From a virus, in IMG/VR virus record IMGVR_UViG_3300025617_000069, positions 1 to 31,139 of that record: a stretch of DNA of 31,139 nt; one strand, 5' to 3'. Shown piece after piece: positions 1,844 through 30,252 of this stretch (positions within the stretch are counted from its first letter, which is position 1; each line of letters starts with the position of its first letter). The position numbers and the translations under genes are program-made. The notes beneath the pieces were generated by a model, which was not told the origin of the DNA, searched no databases, and worked only from the letters and a program-made list of their open reading frames with translations.

Positions 1844-2353
1844 TTATATCTCTTCCATTACTTTATCTAACTTCTTTTGAAGTTTATCAAATGCAGGTTC
1901 AATTACATCATCCCAAAAATATTCTTGATCTTCATCATCATCAATATCTTGTTCTTCCTTAATTATTTCTCCATAGTATACTTCAAATACTCCAATTGGT
2001 TGATGTCCTTCATCCCAATATTTGCCTGAGACTTTGATTTCATCGTCAATTTCAGCCATTTGTCTGTAAATCTCTAAAATCATGTCTGATGGTGGATACC
2101 AAGCTGTATCTAAATAAATTTCACATCTATTATCACTTGAACGATAATATCCTTCATCCCAAATTTGAACCCATTTTGAACCAACCTTATCAATAAATAA
2201 TTCTGCATCTGCTCCAAATTCATCTACAATATGGGGTGCTTCTTTTTGATTTGGGTAAGGCCCACTATGGCACTTTTCAAATCGTTCTACGAAATTATCA
2301 ATTGCTTCCTTAGATCCTTCTATATAGATCTCTGTTCTATTACTATTTGCCAT
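1844..2353 (-). CDS. Hypothetical acidic protein
   Basis: A 169-aa soluble protein of unknown function. The N-terminus (TEIYIEGSKEAIDNFVERFE) looks like a beta-alpha-beta, ferredoxin-like unit. The middle is rich in aromatic residues (KWVQIWDEGYY, DTAWYPPSD), and 130-150 is a very acidic stretch (EEQDIDDDEDQE) before a C-terminal helix. The general pattern recalls Api92/DUF1281-type phage proteins, but this is only an impression. It lies 22 bases downstream of the 2376-2675 gene and upstream of queC, in the same transcription direction. No catalytic motif is evident. Confidence 0.6.
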   Translation of the reverse strand: MANSNRTEIYIEGSKEAIDNFVERFEKCHSGPYPNQKEAPHIVDEFGADAELFIDKVGSKWVQIWDEGYYRSSDNRCEIYLDTAWYPPSDMILEIYRQMAEIDDEIKVSGKYWDEGHQPIGVFEVYYGEIIKEEQDIDDDEDQEYFWDDVIEPAFDKLQKKLDKVMEEI

Positions 2354-2375
2354 AACTTAATCGTATAATTAAATG

Positions 2376-2675
2376 CTACACATTAACTATGTTAATCATT
2401 TTTTCACTAATACTTTTGTAAGTATCAATGTATTCTTTTATAGAACTATAACTTTTTTTCTCATTTAATTTCTCTTCTGCTACTTTTTTTATTGCGTAAG
2501 AAAAGTTAGCTGGGTAGCAGATAGTTTTAATATAGTGAGTATCCTTATCTCCTTTAATTACTCTCTCATATACGGTGTATCCTCCTGTTGAAGATTTACT
2601 AATAAAAAAGGGTTCCATACTAGGATCTTGAATAATAGTATCACTAGTTGGTATTGAATCTGGTTTACGTAACAT
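2376..2675 (-). CDS. Hypothetical protein
   Basis: A 99-aa protein of unknown function between thioredoxin (9 bases upstream) and the 169-aa acidic protein. It starts MLRKPDS and has a central GGYTVYERV / HYIKTICYP beta region followed by a lysine-rich helical C-terminus (KKVAEEKLNEKKSYSSIKEY). Tight spacing with its neighbours and matching base composition support it as a real gene. No motif suggests an activity. Confidence 0.6.
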   Translation of the reverse strand: MLRKPDSIPTSDTIIQDPSMEPFFISKSSTGGYTVYERVIKGDKDTHYIKTICYPANFSYAIKKVAEEKLNEKKSYSSIKEYIDTYKSISEKMINIVNV

Positions 2676-2684
2676 TTATATAAC

Positions 2685-2942
2685 TTATTTTAAAATTAAT
2701 TCTTTTAATTGATCTTGTTTTAGAAGCCCTGCCTTAGAAACTTCTTCACCATCTTTTATAATAACAGTAAAGGGTATAGACTGTACTCTATATTGAGCTG
2801 CTAAACCTGTTTGGTCTTTTTCAATATTAACATCTACAAACTCTACTTCTTCTTTTAGTTCTTCTTTTACCTTATCCCATACTTTACTATACATTCTGCA
2901 GGGACCGCACCAATCTGCGTAAAATTTTATAGCTTTTACCAT
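2685..2942 (-). CDS. trxA: Thioredoxin
   Basis: An 85-aa compact thioredoxin with the WCGPC active site (residues 11-15) directly after the first strand and the cis-proline loop SIPFT (P57). It is shorter than cellular thioredoxins (about 105-110 aa), lacking the N-terminal helix, as phage versions often do. The likely job is re-reducing the C-terminal cysteine pair of the ribonucleotide reductase large subunit, encoded two genes upstream. It is cytoplasmic, and the leader before the ATG is an AT repeat (TATATTATATTATATT). A glutaredoxin is less likely because of the CGPC motif and short alpha/beta pattern. Confidence 0.92.
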   Translation of the reverse strand: MVKAIKFYADWCGPCRMYSKVWDKVKEELKEEVEFVDVNIEKDQTGLAAQYRVQSIPFTVIIKDGEEVSKAGLLKQDQLKELILK

Positions 2943-2978
2943 AATATAATATAATATAATTTATTTAGAATTCCAACT

Positions 2979-3383
2979 TTATTTAACAGTATTTCCATCA
3001 ACTGCTATTTCATGCCAATGTACTCTACCTTCTTCTATCGCTTTCTTAATATTTTTTTGTTTAGACATTAAGAATGAAGAGCCGCTTTTAACTTCTATAA
3101 TATGAACTGCACACTTGGTCTTACTTCCTGTATCTGTAAATGCTACGTAGTCTATAGGCATACCTAAGAATGTACAGTCCTCAACAGGAACAGGAAAATT
3201 AGACATAAAAGGAACAAAGTGTTCTATAGTTTTTCCCCATTGTACTGCCCCGGACCTTTTTTTAGCATCTATTTTAATAAACCGTTTCTGTGCTTCGAAG
3301 TCTTCTTTTAACTTTTTAATTTTATGTAGAAAAAAGAATACTACTCCTATTAGGACTAATCCTAAAAAAATTGATAATATCAT
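2979..3383 (-). CDS. Membrane-anchored Holliday-junction-resolvase-like endonuclease
   Basis: A 134-aa protein with an N-terminal hydrophobic helix (about residues 2-19, followed by KIKKLKED) and a short coiled stretch. The C-terminal domain has a PD-(D/E)xK pattern: E54 in GKTIEHF, then PID (D78), then IIEVKSG (E97, K99), and a conserved-looking KQKNIKKAIEEGRVHW tail. This fits the Holliday-junction-resolvase-related family (Endonuc_Holl), many members of which also begin with a membrane helix. It probably cleaves branched DNA during replication or packaging. It lies 9 bases after nrdA and upstream of thioredoxin. Fold assignment is good; cleavage specificity is inferred. Confidence 0.75.
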   Translation of the reverse strand: MILSIFLGLVLIGVVFFFLHKIKKLKEDFEAQKRFIKIDAKKRSGAVQWGKTIEHFVPFMSNFPVPVEDCTFLGMPIDYVAFTDTGSKTKCAVHIIEVKSGSSFLMSKQKNIKKAIEEGRVHWHEIAVDGNTVK

Positions 3384-17969: not shown

Positions 17970-20282
17970 TTAATTGCTAAGTTTGGAATTTAGTACTAAT
18001 GTTTCTCCTACTTTGCTTCCATCTAAGTAAACATTTCCACCGTTAGAAACTACAGTAATCAATTTTTCTAGTAATGCTTCTACGTTACCCCCTAATTTTG
18101 TTCCGCCAGCCATTGTGATAGTATCCTCATTCAAGGGCTTTAATACAAAATCTTTAACGTTTAAAGTTCCGGATACTCCTCCTGTGCCTTTATAAGCATC
18201 CGAGATTCCGGTTGCGTTTAAATTTTCTGCACCAGACATAGTTCCAATACCGGCAGCAATACCTGTACCTATATCTAGAGCATTAGCAGTTATTAGTGCG
18301 CTATGATCTACTGCTTCTGCGCCAGCTTGTTTGGCCTTATCAAATTGGAGGGTTGTAGCATAATAAGCTGCTTGTAAACCTTTATAGGTAGCCATAACCG
18401 TATGGTAAGCAACTTTTAAAGGCTGTACCATCGTAGCATTAAGTATCATACCTAAACCAGATACTACATTTTTTACGTTTGTAAATGTATCTAATAAGTT
18501 ATTTATCTTCCCTTCTGGGCCTCCGAGAGATTCAGCAAAAGATTTTACTTTATCTACTATATTATTAATAAATTCAGGATTGGACTCTAAGTAGCTTGTT
18601 ATTTTAGCTACAGTAGGCTCTATAGAGGTCATAAAAATACTCTTCAGGTTCTCCGTAAGGTTATTTATTTTGTCCTGAAATGAGATATTATTTTTAAGTC
18701 GAGTAAATTCTTCATTCCCAATCATTTTTAAAGCTTTTTGGGTACCGTGAATTTTCTCTAGCCTTTTAAATTCTTCTTCTCTAGCCTCTGCGGATGAAAA
18801 ACCTGATGCTTCTAATGCTTTCTGGTCGGTATACATTTTGGCTAGCTCTTCTCTTGACATACCTAAAGCTTTAGCTACTGATTGTTGAGCTAAAACATTA
18901 TTAGAAGCAAATGCTTCTTGAACTGCTTCTTGCTTGCTTATTTCTTGAGCTACAGTAGCTAGATCTCCGTTTAGTGCAGCCATCCTAGCTTTGTCTAAAT
19001 TTAATTCCTTACCGGTCATTAATTGAGCAGTCATTTCGTTTTCTATGCTACTCTCAAAATCTAATAAACTTTCAGATATGCTTTCTAATTGACTGAAAGA
19101 AAGTCCAACTTTTCTTGCTTGTGCTGCTGCTTTACCTAATGCTTGAGCTGAAAATCCAGAGTTAATTTTAAATGCTGCTGAGGCGGAAGCAACATCCTTC
19201 ATAATGGCTTGGGATTGTATGTTAAATCCATTTTGCATTTCGAATGCTTCTGCTGCTCCTAAAGCTTCTTTTGCAAATTCTTTTGTATTCTGTCCTGATG
19301 CTATGAGGTCCTTAGCGATCTGGTTAGTAGCTTCTGCTGATAATCCAAATTTATTATTGAGTGTATCAAGAGAAGAGTTAAATACTTCTGTATTAGTATT
19401 AACCATCCCTGTAGCATCAGCAAATCCTCTAGCTAATTCTAATCCTTTACCTAATCTAGAAGTTAAGTAATTAACATTTTTTTCAGCTTTTTGGAATTCG
19501 AATGCAGTAGCTGCTGCCTCCTCTTTAGTCATATTAAAGGACTTGGCAGTTTTAGCAGAGTTTTTATCTACTGCTAGCATTAATTTAACTAATCCACTAA
19601 CCCCTCCTACTATAAGACCTATATATCCACCTGATTTCAAAAAATTCATTGCACTAGAGGCTGCAGATTTGGCAAATCCTTTCATCCCTGCTCCTAATAC
19701 ACTTACTTTCTTTCCATTCTTTTGATTAGAAAGTACTGTTTCTCTTGCTGCTTTTGCTGCATCTTGAAAAGGTCCTGAAAGTTTACGTAATCCCGGTATA
19801 TCGCTGACGACATTAGAGATACCTGAAAAGAAGGATGTACGTGCATCTAGTTTTGCTGCATCTGCTGCTATATCACCGTATGTATCTGCTAATGATTTTG
19901 CATTATCTCTTGCAGCAGTTAAATTTCTTGCTTGATCTAGTACAGCATCTTTTGCATCTCCTGTTAATCTAGCTGCTCTATCGTAAAGATCATTTATCTT
20001 AACATTTAATGTTTGTACTTTAGCTAAATTTTTCTCTTGTTCTGCAGTTGCAAGGGCGGTTGCTTTAGAAGAGACAGCAGCTTTTTTTTGTATTTCAGCA
20101 ACTTTAGAAGCACTTCTACTTATACCGGAAAACGCACCTCCATAATCAGCTAACATCTCGCCTTGTTCCCTTAAAGCTGTGTTAGCTGCACGTGCTGCAT
20201 CTTTAATTTCGAGCATAGAATCTTTAATAGATTCTGCTCTCTTTATATTTTGGTCGTCTATATTTAAATTATCATCAGCCAT
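17970..20282 (-). CDS. Tail tape-measure protein
   Basis: A 770-aa, mostly helical, alanine-rich protein fitting a tape measure, which sets tail length and is ejected ahead of DNA. Residues 1-160 are coiled-coil-like. A hydrophobic glycine-rich stretch (GGYIGLIVGGVSGLVKLML, about 219-237) is the usual membrane-active segment. A long helical region (about 255-560) follows, and the C-terminal third is less charged with a second hydrophobic area near 610-700. It lies after the gp26-like/frameshift pair, the normal place for a tape measure after tail-assembly chaperones. T4 gp29 is 590 aa, so the tail may be longer. Identity rests on length, composition and position more than on motifs. Confidence 0.8.
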   Translation of the reverse strand: MADDNLNIDDQNIKRAESIKDSMLEIKDAARAANTALREQGEMLADYGGAFSGISRSASKVAEIQKKAAVSSKATALATAEQEKNLAKVQTLNVKINDLYDRAARLTGDAKDAVLDQARNLTAARDNAKSLADTYGDIAADAAKLDARTSFFSGISNVVSDIPGLRKLSGPFQDAAKAARETVLSNQKNGKKVSVLGAGMKGFAKSAASSAMNFLKSGGYIGLIVGGVSGLVKLMLAVDKNSAKTAKSFNMTKEEAAATAFEFQKAEKNVNYLTSRLGKGLELARGFADATGMVNTNTEVFNSSLDTLNNKFGLSAEATNQIAKDLIASGQNTKEFAKEALGAAEAFEMQNGFNIQSQAIMKDVASASAAFKINSGFSAQALGKAAAQARKVGLSFSQLESISESLLDFESSIENEMTAQLMTGKELNLDKARMAALNGDLATVAQEISKQEAVQEAFASNNVLAQQSVAKALGMSREELAKMYTDQKALEASGFSSAEAREEEFKRLEKIHGTQKALKMIGNEEFTRLKNNISFQDKINNLTENLKSIFMTSIEPTVAKITSYLESNPEFINNIVDKVKSFAESLGGPEGKINNLLDTFTNVKNVVSGLGMILNATMVQPLKVAYHTVMATYKGLQAAYYATTLQFDKAKQAGAEAVDHSALITANALDIGTGIAAGIGTMSGAENLNATGISDAYKGTGGVSGTLNVKDFVLKPLNEDTITMAGGTKLGGNVEALLEKLITVVSNGGNVYLDGSKVGETLVLNSKLSN

Positions 20283-20308: not shown

Positions 20309-20337
20309 CTAAGGCCTCTATTATTTAGAAGCCTTAG
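20309..20337 (-). other. Hairpin around the stop codon of the frameshift extension
   Basis: CTAAGGC (20309-20315) and GCCTTAG (20331-20337) form a perfect 7-bp stem; the TAA of the frameshifted frame (20321-20323) lies in the loop. On the minus strand it is followed by CTATTTATAG and not a T-run, so it could be a weak terminator or an RNA stability element just before a promoter-like motif. Confidence 0.4.
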
Positions 20338-20569
20338 TAGTGAATGTAGGTCTTTTAATTTTACCGGAGTTTTTAGTTTTTGCTTCTTGAATAGCTTTAT
20401 CGTTCTCTTCATTTTGCTTTTCATAGTATTCTCTCAACTTATTAAAAGTAAATTTACGAAGCCAAATAGGCATATTATATACTGTAAACCAGTCGTAGCC
20501 GCCTTTACCGTAAAATAGTATGTCATGTATTTGCGAAAAAATATATTCTCTATGCTGTAATGTCAGGCC
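20321..20569 (-). CDS. Frameshift extension of the gp26-like tail-assembly protein
   Basis: An 82-codon frame, +1 relative to the gp26-like gene, runs from just after the seven-T run at 20570-20576 to TAA at 20321. It reads GLTLQHREYIFSQIHDILFY, then GKGGYDWFTVYNMPIWLRKF, then a charged helix (NKLREYYEKQNEENDKAIQE) and a basic tail. The only ATG is at residue 33, so the well-formed first half could be made only by frameshifting from the upstream gene, giving a protein of about 322 aa. Gene order (tube, this pair, tape measure) matches tail-assembly chaperones, which widely use programmed frameshifts. Either +1 or -2 slippage gives this frame; -1 quickly meets a TGA. The coding nature is strongly suggested; the mechanism is inferred. 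Confidence 0.7.
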   Translation of the reverse strand, partial: GLTLQHREYIFSQIHDILFYGKGGYDWFTVYNMPIWLRKFTFNKLREYYEKQNEENDKAIQEAKTKNSGKIKRPTFTTKASK

Positions 20570-21290
20570 AAAAAAACCCGATCCCTATTGGGATATCTAC
20601 AGCCTCCTTTCTCCCGTCGTCGTAGTAGACCATGTTAACATCCGGTGAAATGTTAGCATAGTATTCTCGTATAGCTCTTGCATCTTTAGCTAGTAGAAAA
20701 TTATCTACAAAATTTCTAATATCTTTCTTTTCTCTACTTCCATTAACTGATGTTATCATATGTTTTAATCTTGAAGTAGTTATTGTAGAAGATTCTTTAT
20801 TAAGTTTTTTATTACCTTGTATTTCTCTATCAATAATCTGCTCATCTTTATGAGTTAAAAGCTTAATAGTAACAGTATTATCAGTGTTAGGCAATTCGAA
20901 AGCAAAATCGTTTTGCCTATCCTTAAATATCGAATAGTCAATTTCTTTATTTTCTAATGTACTTAAATCTACAGTCACCTCTTTACCTAAAGTATTAAAT
21001 GTGTAGTCTTTTCCATAAGATAGTACTCTAGCTGCCATCATAATAGCGTTTTTATCGCCAATGAGAATATCATCATAATTTACATTATCTGTAACTATAA
21101 GAGATTTAAGTAGTTTATCAATAACTGTTCCGTTATTAATGTAGTTTTGATTAGTTAAAATATCCTCCTCTTTAGCAGTCATGTATTTCATTTCAATTTG
21201 ACCACTTGCTAGAGGTGAATCTTCAGGGTAAAGTAATCCTTTTGATGGTAGTTCTACCGTTTCAGTAGGTAGTTTAAATTGTGATTCCAT
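20550..21290 (-). CDS. T4 gp26-like baseplate/tail-assembly protein
   Basis: A 246-aa protein starting MESQFKLPTETVELPSKG. The start at 21290 is preferred over an in-frame ATG at 21356 because the extra 22 residues are a hydrophobic AT-coded stretch, and a TATTTATA motif lies between the two. The N-terminal KLPTxTVELPSKG and MTAKEEDILTNQ segments resemble T4 gp26-type baseplate hub assembly proteins. The C-terminus (IPIGIGFFWPDITA) contains the slippery run GGG-TTT-TTT-T. It would act as the short chaperone form, while the frameshifted form carries an 82-aa extension, as with lambda gpG and gpGT. It lies between the HNH gene and the tape measure. Confidence 0.8.
   Translation of the reverse strand: MESQFKLPTETVELPSKGLLYPEDSPLASGQIEMKYMTAKEEDILTNQNYINNGTVIDKLLKSLIVTDNVNYDDILIGDKNAIMMAARVLSYGKDYTFNTLGKEVTVDLSTLENKEIDYSIFKDRQNDFAFELPNTDNTVTIKLLTHKDEQIIDREIQGNKKLNKESSTITTSRLKHMITSVNGSREKKDIRNFVDNFLLAKDARAIREYYANISPDVNMVYYDDGRKEAVDIPIGIGFFWPDITA
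20570..20579 (-). promoter_or_regulatory. Programmed frameshift site GGGTTTTTTT
   Basis: In the gp26-like reading frame the minus strand reads GGG TTT TTT TGG CCT. A phenylalanine tRNA on the second TTT can slip +1 (or -2) along the seven-T run and still pair fully, moving into the frame of the 20569-20321 extension. The zero-frame stop lies 18 bases after the run. Confidence 0.6.
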
Positions 21291-21371: not shown

Positions 21372-21992
21372 TTATTCAATTTTCCAACCTTTCATCATTT
21401 TACCTTTATTATCTAATCCTCTTCTAATAAGAGTAGATTGTTTAATTCCACTAAGTTTACTTAACTCTGGGTAGGAAACGGCTGTAAAGGTTCTCCCGTC
21501 TTCAAACTCAACTGTATAGGGTCCACCGTACCACTGCTTTCCTCCTTTTAATCTTTCAGATACTTTTTTAGAAAGTTTTTTTCTACCTTCCTCAGTAATA
21601 TCTGATTTCATACCTTTAAATACCCTAGAGGAGTTATTAGTGTTACCTTTCATTGCTAAAGAAATCTTTTCTTTGTGAGATAAGGTTTTATTAGCTTTCC
21701 ATAAATCTTGTAATACTCTTCTAGCTTCGCCGTACTGTTCTTTGGTTAGTTTTCTTTTACCGTCATATGATAATCTATGAAATGCCCATAACATTTTTTT
21801 ACCGTAGGTAGAATGATCTTTCCAAAATTCTGCTAAAAGTCTATGTGCCTCAAAATGTTCTTCCGGTGTTAAAAGAACTGTTGAAGATTTTTTACCGAAA
21901 CACTTTGGTATAATGTGATGTGCTTCGTAGTAACCATCTTTTTTGTTTCTTTGTTTACCTAATGCCTGTCTAATAAGTTGAATATATTCCAT
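21372..21992 (-). CDS. HNH homing-type endonuclease
   Basis: A 206-aa free-standing endonuclease of the HNH type found as homing genes in T-even-like phages. The nuclease core is near the N-terminus: H25-H26 (YEAHHIIPKCFG) and H46/H50 (LTPEEHFEAHRLL). The usual asparagine before the LT strand is not obvious (SSTVLLT). NUMOD3-like segments follow (LSHKEKISLAMKGN, and ITEEGRKKLSKKVSERLKG), and a C-terminal helix-turn-helix (SYPELSKLSGIKQSTLIRRG) would recognise the target. It interrupts the normal tube to gp26 order and starts immediately after the tube-gene terminator, so it is probably a mobile insertion that cuts related genomes lacking it. Confidence 0.88.
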   Translation of the reverse strand: MEYIQLIRQALGKQRNKKDGYYEAHHIIPKCFGKKSSTVLLTPEEHFEAHRLLAEFWKDHSTYGKKMLWAFHRLSYDGKRKLTKEQYGEARRVLQDLWKANKTLSHKEKISLAMKGNTNNSSRVFKGMKSDITEEGRKKLSKKVSERLKGGKQWYGGPYTVEFEDGRTFTAVSYPELSKLSGIKQSTLIRRGLDNKGKMMKGWKIE

Positions 21993-22058: not shown

Positions 22059-22544
22059 TCAGTAATTCAAGACGCAATAATCCATTGCTACAGTAATACT
22101 GATTTCCACAGCCTCGTCAGATGTCCAGTCATACTGACCAAAGTCTCCGTTAGTTAAGATTGCTCCTTTGATGATCCACTCTCCTACGATATCACCAACA
22201 GGTCCTAATATGTTAAGTGTTAAATCCTTCTTATAGAAGTCTGAATATCCAGCTCTTCCAGTTACAGATTCATATCCTTGTCTTGCCCATTCCATTACTG
22301 CTTGAGCTCCGGAAGGAGTTACTGGATCGTATAGAGTCATGGTCATATCGTCCCATTCTCTTTTTCCTCTAATTTTTCTATATGAATTGATGTGATCTAA
22401 TTTGATTACGTTATCGGTAAAAGTAGGAGCTTTTACATTCTTTACCATAAAGGAAGGAATGTTATCGATAAGCATTACAAATCTGTTCTGTACCTTTGGT
22501 TCAAAGGCTTTAAACATTATTTCGTTTGGATCTAATACTGCCAT
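22059..22544 (-). CDS. Tail tube protein (gp19-like)
   Basis: A 161-aa protein that would stack as hexameric rings to make the inner tail tube through which DNA passes. The start MAVLDPNEIMFKAFEPKVQNRF, the VKAPTFTDNVIKLDHINSYRKIRGKREW region and the closing AVEISITVAMDYC are the recognisable layout of T4 gp19-type proteins (T4 gp19 is 163 aa). It follows the sheath gene by 38 bases, the normal 18-19 order, and has its own motif copy and a strong terminator after it, consistent with high expression of a major structural protein. Confidence 0.92.
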   Translation of the reverse strand: MAVLDPNEIMFKAFEPKVQNRFVMLIDNIPSFMVKNVKAPTFTDNVIKLDHINSYRKIRGKREWDDMTMTLYDPVTPSGAQAVMEWARQGYESVTGRAGYSDFYKKDLTLNILGPVGDIVGEWIIKGAILTNGDFGQYDWTSDEAVEISITVAMDYCVLNY

Positions 22545-22582: not shown

Positions 22583-24340
22583 TTATCCGTTAAATGTTGC
22601 ACCTGTAGGTTCAACTGTAAAGTCAAGAACTATAAATTCTGCAGTCTTAGCTGGCTGAATAAAGATTTGACCTACTAATTGATTTCTATCTACAACATCT
22701 GCGGTGTTGTTTGTATCATCCATTACTACTCTAAATGTATAAAGACCCTGTCTTTGTACAACTGATTCTAAGTAAGGATTAACTACTGATAAGAATCTAT
22801 TTCTAGTTGCTACTGTGTTTTGTTCAAACACTAAGTTTCTAGCTTGATCTCCTAAGAACTTTTTAAGTTCGATTAACAACCTTCTTACATTGACTCTATC
22901 TAAAGCAGAAGCTTTAGTTTGTAATGTCTTCTGACCAAATACTGCAATGCCTTGTCCAGGAAAAGTAGCAATTGGGTTAATCTTACCATCATATAATAAG
23001 TCTCTTTGACCTCTATTAAGTTTCTGTTCTGCTTGAATTACTCCAACTACTCCACCTCTTACTAATCCAGCAGGTGCAAACCAAGGTGCTGAACTATTAT
23101 CTGTGAATGCATACACTCCTGGTATAACACATGATGCAGGTACGAAAGCATTTCTTCCTGTTGCCATTCTTACCTGTACCCAAGGCCAGTATGAAGCTGC
23201 ATATGAACTATTTAATGATGTAGCTGTTGATGTAATATTTGCTACAGTTGAACCGTAATTATCTAAATCTACTACTGCGATACAATCTCCTCTAGACTCT
23301 GCTAAAGTAATTACACTGTTTAAAGCTCCTGCTTGATCTGAGTTTTCATATATTAATCCTGGTGTAGATACTATATTGAATAAGTACTCATCTTTATTAC
23401 CTAGGATTGAAATAGCATCGTTATAGTTAGCAGCTTTTAATCCCTGTGAATTATTGTTAGAGATTGTTGTTCCGTAGTTAGCATTAGCAACTGCATTAGA
23501 ACCAGCAGCACCGTGGAAAGAACCAGATTCTACTATTGGTAAAGAACCTGAATATGAAGCTCCATCCGTATCTGATCCTACTGTTACACCATCGTTAAGT
23601 AAGTATCCAGTTGTTTGAGAATTTACTGCTGAAACATAGATATAATTAGATTTATTTATATACTCACCAAAAGATTTGATGTAAGTCTTATCTCCATCGG
23701 TAGCTTTTGATTTATACTGAGTACCTATCTTAGTTTCGATATAATTATCTGATTCTGGATCTAATGAACAATTATTAAATGTTTCTAGTACAATTTTGTT
23801 ATTGTGGCTATCATCTCCTCTTCTTACCAGTAATGTAAATGTACCTTTTTTGTTATCTACATTTTGAATTTCCCATCTAATATTATCTGCTGATCCTGAG
23901 GTAATTACTCCACCGCTGCCTGCGATTTCAGTACCTGGAGATGTAAGCCCGGTAGATGCATTAAAGATTTCTCCTTGACCTAATGTTTTAATAACAAAAG
24001 GTTGTACGGAACCGTCCGCTGAAGATGAAATGTGTGTTGATGTTGCAGATGTAAATGAACCTGTTACTACTCTGGTTACTAATACTGAATTTCCTCCTTG
24101 TTGGAAATAGTTTTTTACCCCTACTGAGGTTAAAAATTCTTGCTTAGTTGATCCTGAAGTAAAAGTCTCTCCAAACTTTCTAACGTATTCATTATATGAA
24201 GTAACGATAGTTGGTTCTTCAACTGGTCCTTTTACTGTTGGTCCGATGATTGCTGCACCAGCTTCTACTGGAGCAGGATTGATAAAGGAAAGATCATTTT
24301 CTCTTGCAAATACACCTGGTGAGATGATAGTTTCTGCCAT
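22583..24340 (-). CDS. Contractile tail sheath protein (gp18-like)
   Basis: A 585-aa tail sheath whose contraction drives the tube through the host envelope. The N-terminus (MAETIISPGVFARENDLSF, then EAGAAIIGPTVKGPVEEPTIVTSYNEYVRKFGETF) is diagnostic of sheath proteins. Residues about 100-330 are a variable, Ser/Thr/Gly-rich surface domain. The C-terminal half has the conserved core: YWPWVQVRM, PASCVIPGVYA, GKINPIATFPGQGIAVFGQKT, VNVRRLLIELKKFLGDQARNLVFEQN and IFIQPAKTAEFIVLDFTVEPTG, which builds the inner layer contacting the tube. Slightly shorter than T4 gp18 (659 aa). Two motif copies lie in its 140-base upstream gap. Confidence 0.95.
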   Translation of the reverse strand: MAETIISPGVFARENDLSFINPAPVEAGAAIIGPTVKGPVEEPTIVTSYNEYVRKFGETFTSGSTKQEFLTSVGVKNYFQQGGNSVLVTRVVTGSFTSATSTHISSSADGSVQPFVIKTLGQGEIFNASTGLTSPGTEIAGSGGVITSGSADNIRWEIQNVDNKKGTFTLLVRRGDDSHNNKIVLETFNNCSLDPESDNYIETKIGTQYKSKATDGDKTYIKSFGEYINKSNYIYVSAVNSQTTGYLLNDGVTVGSDTDGASYSGSLPIVESGSFHGAAGSNAVANANYGTTISNNNSQGLKAANYNDAISILGNKDEYLFNIVSTPGLIYENSDQAGALNSVITLAESRGDCIAVVDLDNYGSTVANITSTATSLNSSYAASYWPWVQVRMATGRNAFVPASCVIPGVYAFTDNSSAPWFAPAGLVRGGVVGVIQAEQKLNRGQRDLLYDGKINPIATFPGQGIAVFGQKTLQTKASALDRVNVRRLLIELKKFLGDQARNLVFEQNTVATRNRFLSVVNPYLESVVQRQGLYTFRVVMDDTNNTADVVDRNQLVGQIFIQPAKTAEFIVLDFTVEPTGATFNG

Positions 24341-27640: not shown

Positions 27641-28990
27641 TTATATATCAAACCTATTTTTGTAGGCTCTGTAGTTTTGTTGTACTTCTTGTGCTGAGAG
27701 TGCTCTGTTATACATTTTAACTATAGGGATCTCTCCATTAAAATATCTGCTATACCCCCCGTTATATTCATATCTTCCAATATATCTAGTCTTAAGAGCA
27801 CTATAGTTAGAAGACCAGATAAAAGATGCATGATCACCTCCTTCTGCTACTCCATTAACATAAAATTGCATACTAGTTCCCGATTCCTGTACAAAAGTGA
27901 TATGGTACCAGGTATTAGATTGAAAAACCGTACTTCCATATTTCCACACTCCTTGACCGTGATCCCAAACTGCTAATTTGCTGCTTAAAAGAGCTAACCA
28001 ATTTGCATTAAAATCATCGGCTTCTGCTGAGTTGAAATGTTGAAGTGTTGATGCTGAGTTGGTGTTAAATACATATTCTGCTGCCCATCCTTGATTATTA
28101 GATGCAATACCAATATCTGTATTAAAATACAAGTAATCATCTGTACCGTCGAATGTAAAAGAACTTTTTTTTCCATTAGAAGTATAATTAATACCATTAT
28201 AGGTGTTGGCTTTAGTATTTTTATTAATTAAATCCGACCAACCCGATTCACCTTTTTCTATAAGTTCCTTTATAGATGGCTCCTTCCCATCTATTTTATC
28301 TACCCTAGGATATGCAAATTCTATTCCGGAATTTACATTTGTAGTATAATAATGGTATGATCTATGCATTGCGGATGTGGTACTTGAAGCCCATCTTGAA
28401 TCTTGTCCTCCTATATTTCCATAACTTTTATCTGATATTTTTACTCCGTTTTCATACCAACCAGAGTCAGGGTGTCTTAATCCTGCTGTATAGGTATGAG
28501 GGAATACATGACTTACAACTAGATACCATTGGTTTTGTGTTAAAGATGCAATTGAAGGGTAGGTAAAATATGGATTTCCTTGAGATGCATTATTATCATT
28601 TCTAATTGGAGCGGGGTTCATTCCCATATAGAAAGTACCTCCTGTACCTGCAGTATATCTCCTAACCCACACAGAATATCTATAAGTAGAATTATTGTCT
28701 ATAGGGTAATATGAACTATTCCAACCCCCATCAGCACCAGATGTTGCATCCGGTGTTGTTCTCCAGGTTACAGAATTTCTACCCCATGGATCATCAGTTA
28801 CTAATACTCTGTTCTGTTCAGATGAACTACCATTACCACCGTACCCAGATTGTCCTCCAGTACCTGTAGCCCAATTTCCAGGATCAGGTAAAATATTATT
28901 TACCTGTGTTGCTTTTAAAGTTGATCGTCTACTAGCACCATCTAAGGCTAATACTAATCCATCTTGTTTTATGTGTGGTCCTGAATACAT
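27641..28990 (-). CDS. LamG-like tail adhesin (copy A)
   Basis: A 449-aa tail protein. It starts with a GPHIKQDGLVLALDGAS segment also seen in copy B. The middle (about 50-190) is a Gly/Ser/Tyr-rich beta domain resembling a carbohydrate-binding module. The C-terminal ~200 residues form a concanavalin-like/laminin-G-type jelly roll: FTFDGTDDYLYF, GWAAEYVFN, NTWYHITFVQESGTSMQFYVNGV, RYIGRYEY and the closing FNGEIPIVKMYNRALSAQEV motif. Such domains bind glycans, fitting host-surface recognition. Its ATG overlaps the stop of copy B by one base (TAATG), so both are co-translated. No signal peptide, as expected for a virion component. Confidence 0.78.
   Translation of the reverse strand: MYSGPHIKQDGLVLALDGASRRSTLKATQVNNILPDPGNWATGTGGQSGYGGNGSSSEQNRVLVTDDPWGRNSVTWRTTPDATSGADGGWNSSYYPIDNNSTYRYSVWVRRYTAGTGGTFYMGMNPAPIRNDNNASQGNPYFTYPSIASLTQNQWYLVVSHVFPHTYTAGLRHPDSGWYENGVKISDKSYGNIGGQDSRWASSTTSAMHRSYHYYTTNVNSGIEFAYPRVDKIDGKEPSIKELIEKGESGWSDLINKNTKANTYNGINYTSNGKKSSFTFDGTDDYLYFNTDIGIASNNQGWAAEYVFNTNSASTLQHFNSAEADDFNANWLALLSSKLAVWDHGQGVWKYGSTVFQSNTWYHITFVQESGTSMQFYVNGVAEGGDHASFIWSSNYSALKTRYIGRYEYNGGYSRYFNGEIPIVKMYNRALSAQEVQQNYRAYKNRFDI
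27670..27705 (-). repeat. 36-bp perfect direct repeat, copy A
   Basis: This segment is identical to 29019-29054. It codes, near the C-terminus of each LamG-like protein, for RALSAQEVQQNY. Bases on both sides differ more, so identity is concentrated here. Confidence 0.85.
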
Positions 28991-30252
28991 TATATATTAA
29001 ATCTGTTTTTGTATGAGTTGTAGTTTTGTTGTACTTCTTGTGCTGAGAGTGCTCGGTTGTAGTACTTAGCTACTGGGATTTCTCCTTGAAACCAGCTTCC
29101 AACATTTCCACCAAATGCTCTCTGCCCACCTATATATAAATTTGTACTATCAGGTGCTCCTGAAAAAGAGGTTGTCGAATTAGATACAGATACTCCATTT
29201 TTATATAAAACCAAACCAGACCCTCCTTGAAAAACAGCTGTTATATGGTGATAAGTATCTCTTGTAAGTCCAGCAGTAGCAGGGTAAGTGCCTGTACTAG
29301 CATCTCTTATTTGGAATCCTATATTAGTTGTTCCATATTTATAAAATCCGTATTGACCTGCATAACTACCTGCAATTGAAAATATATTACTATTAAACCC
29401 ATTTGCCCAAGTAGCTCCTGTAGGAACCATAAATACACATTCCATTGTAAAGGGTTGAGAATAATCTGTTATCCCTATTCCTGTTACACTATCTATTCTA
29501 TCATCCGTACCATCAAACGTAGGTTGTCCATCAGAATCAAATGATACATTAGATACATCTATGTTTGTAGTTTTTTTTAAATCTATAATAGATTGTGTTG
29601 ATGAACGAGTACCGTTAACAAATGGAGTAGCATGTTCTTTTTGCTCTACTTGAAGTCTTTTTACTTTATATTCCATTAAACCCGTACCACTATAACCTGG
29701 ATATACTGCTACTCTAAATGAAGTCCCGCTTCCAGTGTACCAACCAGTCTGTAAAGTGTATATGTATCTGGTCCAGCCTCCACCTAAATCTATTGTTGTA
29801 ACATCACTACTATTGCTACTTAGAGGTTTTTCATTATAAGTTGTATCATCGGCAGTAGAGCCCAATCCGTAAAAAGAAATACTGTATGCATTTGATGGGT
29901 TTATCCAAATATCAATAGTTACAGTAGTTTTTAGGGAAGTATCGAGTGTATATGTAGAACTTTGATTTAATCTATCATGACCACCAGCACCTGTTGATGT
30001 ACATTTTTTATGAAAATAATAATACCTATTTTCAAAAGCTACTTCACTAGTATCAACTTGTGAATTAGATGTATCTGTTGAAGACCATCCTGTCAAATCT
30101 CCTGTCGAAAAGTCTGGATTGGTTACTAAATTGGTTGTAGGTTCTCCTTTATTAAATCGGTAAGCAACATCAGTACCCATAGTACCGTAATTAGTATCAT
30201 ACCCAAATACTAATCCATCTCTTTCTATGTTAGGTCCTCCAGCTGTAGCCAT
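28990..30252 (-). CDS. LamG-like tail adhesin (copy B)
   Basis: A 420-aa paralogue of the downstream LamG protein. Shared blocks are the N-terminal GPNIERDGLVFGYD, the PTFDGTDDRID and GLVLYKNGV jelly-roll signatures, and the C-terminal FQGEIPVAKYYNRALSAQEV closure. The central third differs: residues about 35-210 (NLVTNPDFSTGDLTGWSSTD, and onward) resemble carbohydrate-binding modules in which an FSxGxxxGW strand is typical. It follows the 110-aa protein by one base and its stop overlaps the copy A start. The likely role is binding host surface glycans, with the two copies giving different specificities. Adhesin function is inferred from domain type and location. Confidence 0.78.
   Translation of the reverse strand: MATAGGPNIERDGLVFGYDTNYGTMGTDVAYRFNKGEPTTNLVTNPDFSTGDLTGWSSTDTSNSQVDTSEVAFENRYYYFHKKCTSTGAGGHDRLNQSSTYTLDTSLKTTVTIDIWINPSNAYSISFYGLGSTADDTTYNEKPLSSNSSDVTTIDLGGGWTRYIYTLQTGWYTGSGTSFRVAVYPGYSGTGLMEYKVKRLQVEQKEHATPFVNGTRSSTQSIIDLKKTTNIDVSNVSFDSDGQPTFDGTDDRIDSVTGIGITDYSQPFTMECVFMVPTGATWANGFNSNIFSIAGSYAGQYGFYKYGTTNIGFQIRDASTGTYPATAGLTRDTYHHITAVFQGGSGLVLYKNGVSVSNSTTSFSGAPDSTNLYIGGQRAFGGNVGSWFQGEIPVAKYYNRALSAQEVQQNYNSYKNRFNI
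29019..29054 (-). repeat. 36-bp perfect direct repeat, copy B
   Basis: Second copy of the 36-bp repeat (see 27670-27705), about 1.35 kb away, coding for the same C-terminal motif. A possible crossover point between the two adhesin genes. Confidence 0.85.

Follow-up and report, generated by a model that had tools for sequence, protein, structure and literature searches.

Organization of the tail locus

The window (the whole stretch of DNA analysed here) is an IMG/VR virus record of 31,139 bases. A series of its minus-strand genes encodes a tail sheath protein (22583-24340; Pfam PF04984, E-value 1.1e-13), a gp19-like tail tube protein (22059-22544; PHROG tail tube, E-value 1.5e-23, and PF06841 with an E-value of 0.001, which is below the curated cut-off), a small ORF, a gp26-like protein (20550-21290) and a probable tape measure protein (17970-20282). 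The last assignment is based on position and length and on the equivalent gene of Flavobacterium phage immuto, which is annotated as tape measure; a Pfam search with the window protein yields no match. The small ORF (206 aa, 21372-21992, minus strand), located between the tube and chaperone genes, contains an HHIIPKCFG motif that by eye resembles HNH homing endonucleases, and Pfam and NCBIfam searches detect no match. Elsewhere on the minus strand, the ORF at 955-1761 appears by eye to be QueC-like (7-cyano-7-deazaguanine synthase), which suggests DNA modification, and two adjoining ORFs (27641-28990 and 28990-30252) with near-identical C-termini, ALSAQEVQQNYxxYKNRF, look LamG-like and are perhaps duplicated virion or tail-fibre genes.

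Two overlapping ORFs lie between the tail tube and the probable tape measure genes, and the gene order in immuto is identical. The first, the gp26-like ORF, starts with ATG at 21290, encodes 246 aa (TAC-N, the predicted short tail assembly chaperone) and ends in ATC GGG TTT TTT TGG CCT GAC ATT ACA GCA TAG, with the stop codon at 20552-20550. This 3' end includes a run of seven T's (20570-20576, minus strand), read in the 0 frame as TTT TTT T(GG). Immediately downstream, the +1 frame reads GGC CTG ACA TTA CAG CAT AGA GAA TAT and stays open to the TAA at 20323-20321, an extension of 82 codons including GGC (TAC-C; 20321-20569 with its stop, minus strand). In the overlap of the two frames (20550-20569, minus strand), the 0 frame encodes WPDITA followed by the stop, and the +1 frame encodes GLTLQH. 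The predicted fusion, TAC-NC, is 322 aa long, and the extension ends 38 nt before the probable tape measure gene. The sole ATG of the extension is codon 33 (20471-20473, minus strand), which falls within the conserved MPIWLRKF motif and is not credible as a start. At this junction, the -1 frame closes at once at the TGA in CCTGAC, and there is no canonical -1 heptamer X_XXY_YYZ in the 0 frame. Direct reading thus agrees with the sequence-only reading of this DNA in its coordinates and sequence text, in the single ATG at residue 33, in the immediate TGA of the -1 frame and in the placement between tube and tape measure.

Conservation of the junction and its exceptions

With the gp26-like protein as query, IMG/VR yields 80 homologues of 55-100% identity. 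In all 80, TTTTTTT or TTTCTTT occupies the same phase of the 0 frame, a 0-frame stop follows within a few codons, and the +1 frame holds the extension as far as the contigs reach, with the common core GLT..R..LFSQIHEIVFHGkGGYDWxTVYNMPIWLRKFTF. Isolates with complete genomes show this layout too: Flavobacterium phage immuto (sequence TTTCTTTGG), Microcystis phage Mel-JY01, Rhodothermus phage RM378, Bacillus phage SP-15, Listeria phage LIS04 and Streptococcus phage GXN1. Counting wider relatives, the predicted frameshift is conserved in hundreds. The alignment of homologues thus bears out the proposal of a programmed frameshift made from the window alone: the site and the +1 frame are retained together, with selection (see below) in the +1 frame alone, a pattern well outside what chance would produce. 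In the isolate records, the first ORF is labelled baseplate hub, baseplate protein or hypothetical, and the extension is absent, called separately or shortened to a small hypothetical ORF. It had been anticipated that annotation would easily miss the extension, and in the public records examined, including those of immuto, SP-15 and LIS04, it has been overlooked.

Homologues with a broken second frame or a start codon of its own, which the sequence-only reading had named as counter-evidence, are almost absent. None of the 80 nearest homologues has an interruption in the second frame, and a well-placed ATG occurs solely among wider relatives, in one small branch (L235 and L240) where the frameshift is lost and TAC-C is a separate ORF that starts just past the TAC-N stop. 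Because of these two loci, covalent fusion of TAC-N and TAC-C is no strict requirement across all relatives. Another relative, L219, contains tandem genes (1501-2241 and 2244-3131) in a T4-like arrangement: the first ends like TAC-N, and the second joins TAC-N and TAC-C in a single reading frame whose register is the predicted one. In L024, a deletion of roughly 120 bases relative to L023, from about position 1036, removes the extension stop together with the tape measure start and fuses the two in frame; the deletion may be real or an assembly artefact.

Homology to T4 gp26 and gp51

An hhalign comparison of the fusion profile with T4 gp51 yields an alignment of 224 columns that reaches the C-terminal end of gp51 (P = 4.4e-8), whereas the match to T4 gp26 stops at the Phe-Phe junction (P = 1.3e-7); the controls (reversed gp51, gp25 and gp27) give P values of at least 0.5. 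The TAC-C extension alone is similar to the C-terminus of gp51 (P = 2.4e-4). The Pfam profile PF12322, T4_baseplate, is matched by 44 of 58 diverse relatives and by the in-frame fusion gene of L219, and the gp26-like protein of the window, searched alone, is below the threshold for this family. When Pfam, PHROGs and PDB sequences are searched with just the extension, all matches are weak (PHROG “tail assembly chaperone”, E-value 0.08), and a PDB search with its predicted fold (pLDDT 71) identifies no match; neither does a PDB profile search started with the TAC-N alignment. When the AlphaFold2 model of TAC-N (pLDDT 94) is re-aligned to the 293 PDB chains ranked highest by Foldseek, the top two matches are weak and of low Z-score: YqbN (3klu, Z = 5.2, 89 aligned residues, rmsd 4.5) and HK97 gp13 (2ob9, Z = 5.0, 88 aligned residues, rmsd 3.7). 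YqbN is a relative of phage tail chaperones, and gp13 is the tail chaperone of HK97.

T4 gene 26 is reported to encode TAC-N and gene 51 to encode TAC-NC (Vladimirov et al. 2022), and both L219 and the profile comparisons agree with this assignment. Given that the fusion profile matches gp51 end to end and that its first domain matches gp26, the window gene is best interpreted as the source of both tail assembly chaperones of a contractile phage of the T4 type, the longer one through a +1 frameshift, with a probability of about 0.92. The assignment to tail assembly chaperones, originally suggested by gene position, is thus strengthened by PF12322 in relatives and by profile homology.

The predicted slip site

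We infer the following course of events at the junction, from the shift itself and its efficiency to the tRNA step and the roles of the products. Most ribosomes would stop at the TAG, yielding TAC-N, and a minority would shift +1 at UUU UUU U, yielding TAC-NC with the added TAC-C domain. The most likely step is that the P-site tRNA-Phe (anticodon GAA) slips from UUU to the UUU or UUC that overlaps it before the following codon, UUU or UGG in the window, has been decoded, as at the UUU_C of influenza PA-X. By analogy with gpG and gpGT of phage lambda, TAC-N would coat the tape measure, with TAC-NC, the less abundant form, recruiting tube subunits. The junction peptide predicted for the window fusion is EAVDIPIGIGFFGLTLQHR. 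At the immuto site, TTT CTT TGG, slippage on UUU predicts a product that reads ...GVSFFGLTPEYR, and slippage on CUU one that reads ...GVSFLGLTPEYR.

Re-pairing one base downstream is possible solely for codons of three equal bases. Among the 56 unambiguous +1 representatives (70% clusters), every overlap includes such a codon: UUU_Y in 54 and CCC_A in two (L193 and L202). Within the SP-15-like clade, the slip codon of one branch (L193, L198 and L202) has apparently been swapped for CCC_A. Several sites leave a single candidate: at TTT CTA TTC (L084), the first Phe codon must slip, and at TTC TTT TGG (L225) and TTC TTT CGT (L176 and L190), the second must. By sequence, the UUU to UUC type of re-pairing is available in relatives at UUU_CGU, UUU_CUU and UUU_CUA; the window has the UUU_U form. 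The 0-frame stop lies 3-9 codons past the slip codon, and the codon that directly follows the last slip codon is mostly UGG, CGT or TAC (35, 12 and 7 representatives, respectively). RNA folding downstream of the slip site reveals no structure that stands out (mean z-score of -0.27 vs -0.52 in a control region).

The same variants bear on two other ways to reach the downstream frame. Slippage of RNA polymerase on the T run, by which some mRNAs would be one U shorter, deserves consideration for the window, where seven T's are long enough; however, the same overlap is present without a homopolymer at TTTCTTT (L031, L060, L069 and immuto), at TTC TTT TGG (L225-L239), at TTC TTT CGT (L176, L190 and GXN1) and at TTT CTA TTC (L084), and we regard this explanation as very unlikely. 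A ribosomal shift of -2, in the manner of phage Mu, would yield the same downstream frame and a junction that reads ...GIGFFFGLTLQHR. On the pure T7 of the window, the P-site Phe-tRNA at the second UUU can indeed re-pair two bases back, but no such re-pairing exists at TTT CTT TGG, TTC TTT TGG, TTC TTT CGT or TTT CTA TTC, whereas +1 slippage on UUU_Y is possible in all of these, which makes the -2 shift highly improbable. Of the two directions in the initial suggestion, “+1 or -2”, the first is accordingly favoured.

Translation of the extension

Over 112 pairs, the +1 frame downstream of the 0-frame stop has a pN/pS of 0.15. For the stretch from this stop to Met33, the +1 frame gives 0.26, as opposed to 1.05 and 2.06 for the two alternative frames; purifying selection thus acts on the extension in the +1 frame only, and the stretch that has no start codon is therefore translated protein.

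These values also speak against termination-reinitiation, in which the extension would be a separate small protein with its own start near the TAC-N stop, as the TAC-C ORF of L235 and L240 would allow. Not only the part of the extension before Met33 is under purifying selection, but in 25 of 76 loci there is no ATG, GTG or TTG in the usable interval, i.e., from the preceding +1-frame stop to 15 codons before the MPIW motif, and three loci (L031, L035 and L069) lack even the ATG at this motif. Furthermore, a Shine-Dalgarno-like sequence precedes the Met33 ATG in just 5 of 76 loci, and the two domains are fused in L219 and in T4 gp51. Reinitiation appears most improbable on this evidence. CTG, considered as a start codon of the extension, was dropped by eye: it is replaced by CAG in L005 and by CTA in L079. 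Finally, a T7 run is a typical place for indel errors, but a sequencing or assembly error, or a decayed gene, is refuted by the recurrence of the same architecture, interrupted sites included, across 80 contigs and in a number of completely sequenced isolates, and its probability is negligible.

Predicted direction of the shift in the family

Frameshifts of phage tail chaperones are usually of the -1 type, and the one predicted for the window has the opposite direction. More distant relatives (XacN1, RAS14, Atu_ph07, LR756511 and Aswh_1) require a -1 shift. When representatives at 70% identity with an adjacent Phe-Phe pair are compared, the base before this pair is T in 11 of 11 loci of the -1 type and in 0 of 61 loci of the +1 type (Fisher P = 3e-13, not corrected for relatedness). 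Mapping the +1 label on the tree takes a minimum of four changes along well-supported branches, and L157 (A_AAT_TTC) is a -1 member within a +1 clade. These patterns make it somewhat more probable than the contrary that ribosomes can shift in either direction at one conserved Phe-Phe junction within a single family of homologues and that the preceding base selects between the two, T creating the T_TTT_TTY heptamer with a -1 shift and any other base, together with UUU_Y, leading to +1. This one-base rule is a correlation across loci.

Comparison with known systems

The closest known counterpart is T4 gp26/gp51, which by profile comparison and PF12322 belongs to the same protein family as the window gene; T4 has two separate genes, whereas the window has one gene with a predicted +1 shift. 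Vladimirov, Gautam and Davidson (2022, Virology 566:9-15) reportedly describe frameshift-made TAC-NC in several T4-like groups. In the part of PMC12846349 that cites this work, the poly-T sites of these groups are described as -1. The TAC of Vandenendeviridae and Andersonviridae (PMC12846349) resembles the window in the poly-T frameshift at the 3' end of TAC-N, but the site is GTTTTT and the shift is -1.

Phage lambda gpG/gpGT shares with the window the combination of a short chaperone with an extension made by infrequent frameshifting, encoded between tube and tape measure (PMC5009743), but lambda shifts -1 (Xu, Hendrix & Duda 2004) and the window is predicted to shift +1; the searches performed here reveal no sequence similarity of the window protein to gpG/gpGT. 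The same review presents frameshifting of tail chaperones as the rule for long-tailed phages, “except T4” (PMC5009743). For haloviruses of the HF1 group and HSTV-2, a +1 shift at TTT-CGN sites such as TTT-CGC, between tube and tape measure, has been proposed, as a prediction only (PMC7230728; PMC5009743). The direction, the UUU_C slip codon and the gene position are as here, but these are archaeal viruses. At the +1 site of influenza A PA-X, UCC_UUU_CGU, tRNA-Phe slips from UUU to UUC, and a broader group of UUU_C sites was predicted in that study (PMC3498833). The UUU_CGU of the SP-15-like branch is identical to the PA-X site, and the window has UUU_UUU_UGG; influenza A is a eukaryotic RNA virus, and PA-X is unrelated to the window protein.

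Implications

Frameshifted tail chaperones are textbook knowledge, frameshifting in T4-like groups has been known since 2022, and a +1 shift has been proposed for the HF1 haloviruses; novelty here therefore rests on the variant and on its breadth. In the literature searched, which did not include Vladimirov et al. 2022, we found no description of the broad +1 UUU_Y form in the T4-type family or of the separation of the two directions by one base.

In reviews, T4 stands out as the case that breaks the frameshifting rule for the tail chaperones of long-tailed phages. The family analysed here holds all solutions in homologous proteins, namely a +1 shift, a -1 shift, T4-like tandem genes and a split second domain, and with these side by side, both the choice of direction and the loss of the shift are testable by single-base changes. 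The analysis also brings to light a conserved domain of tail proteins, overlooked by the present annotation of the public records covered, for example those of immuto, SP-15 and LIS04, and the family provides a large training set for finders of +1 motifs, which have no general bacterial motif.
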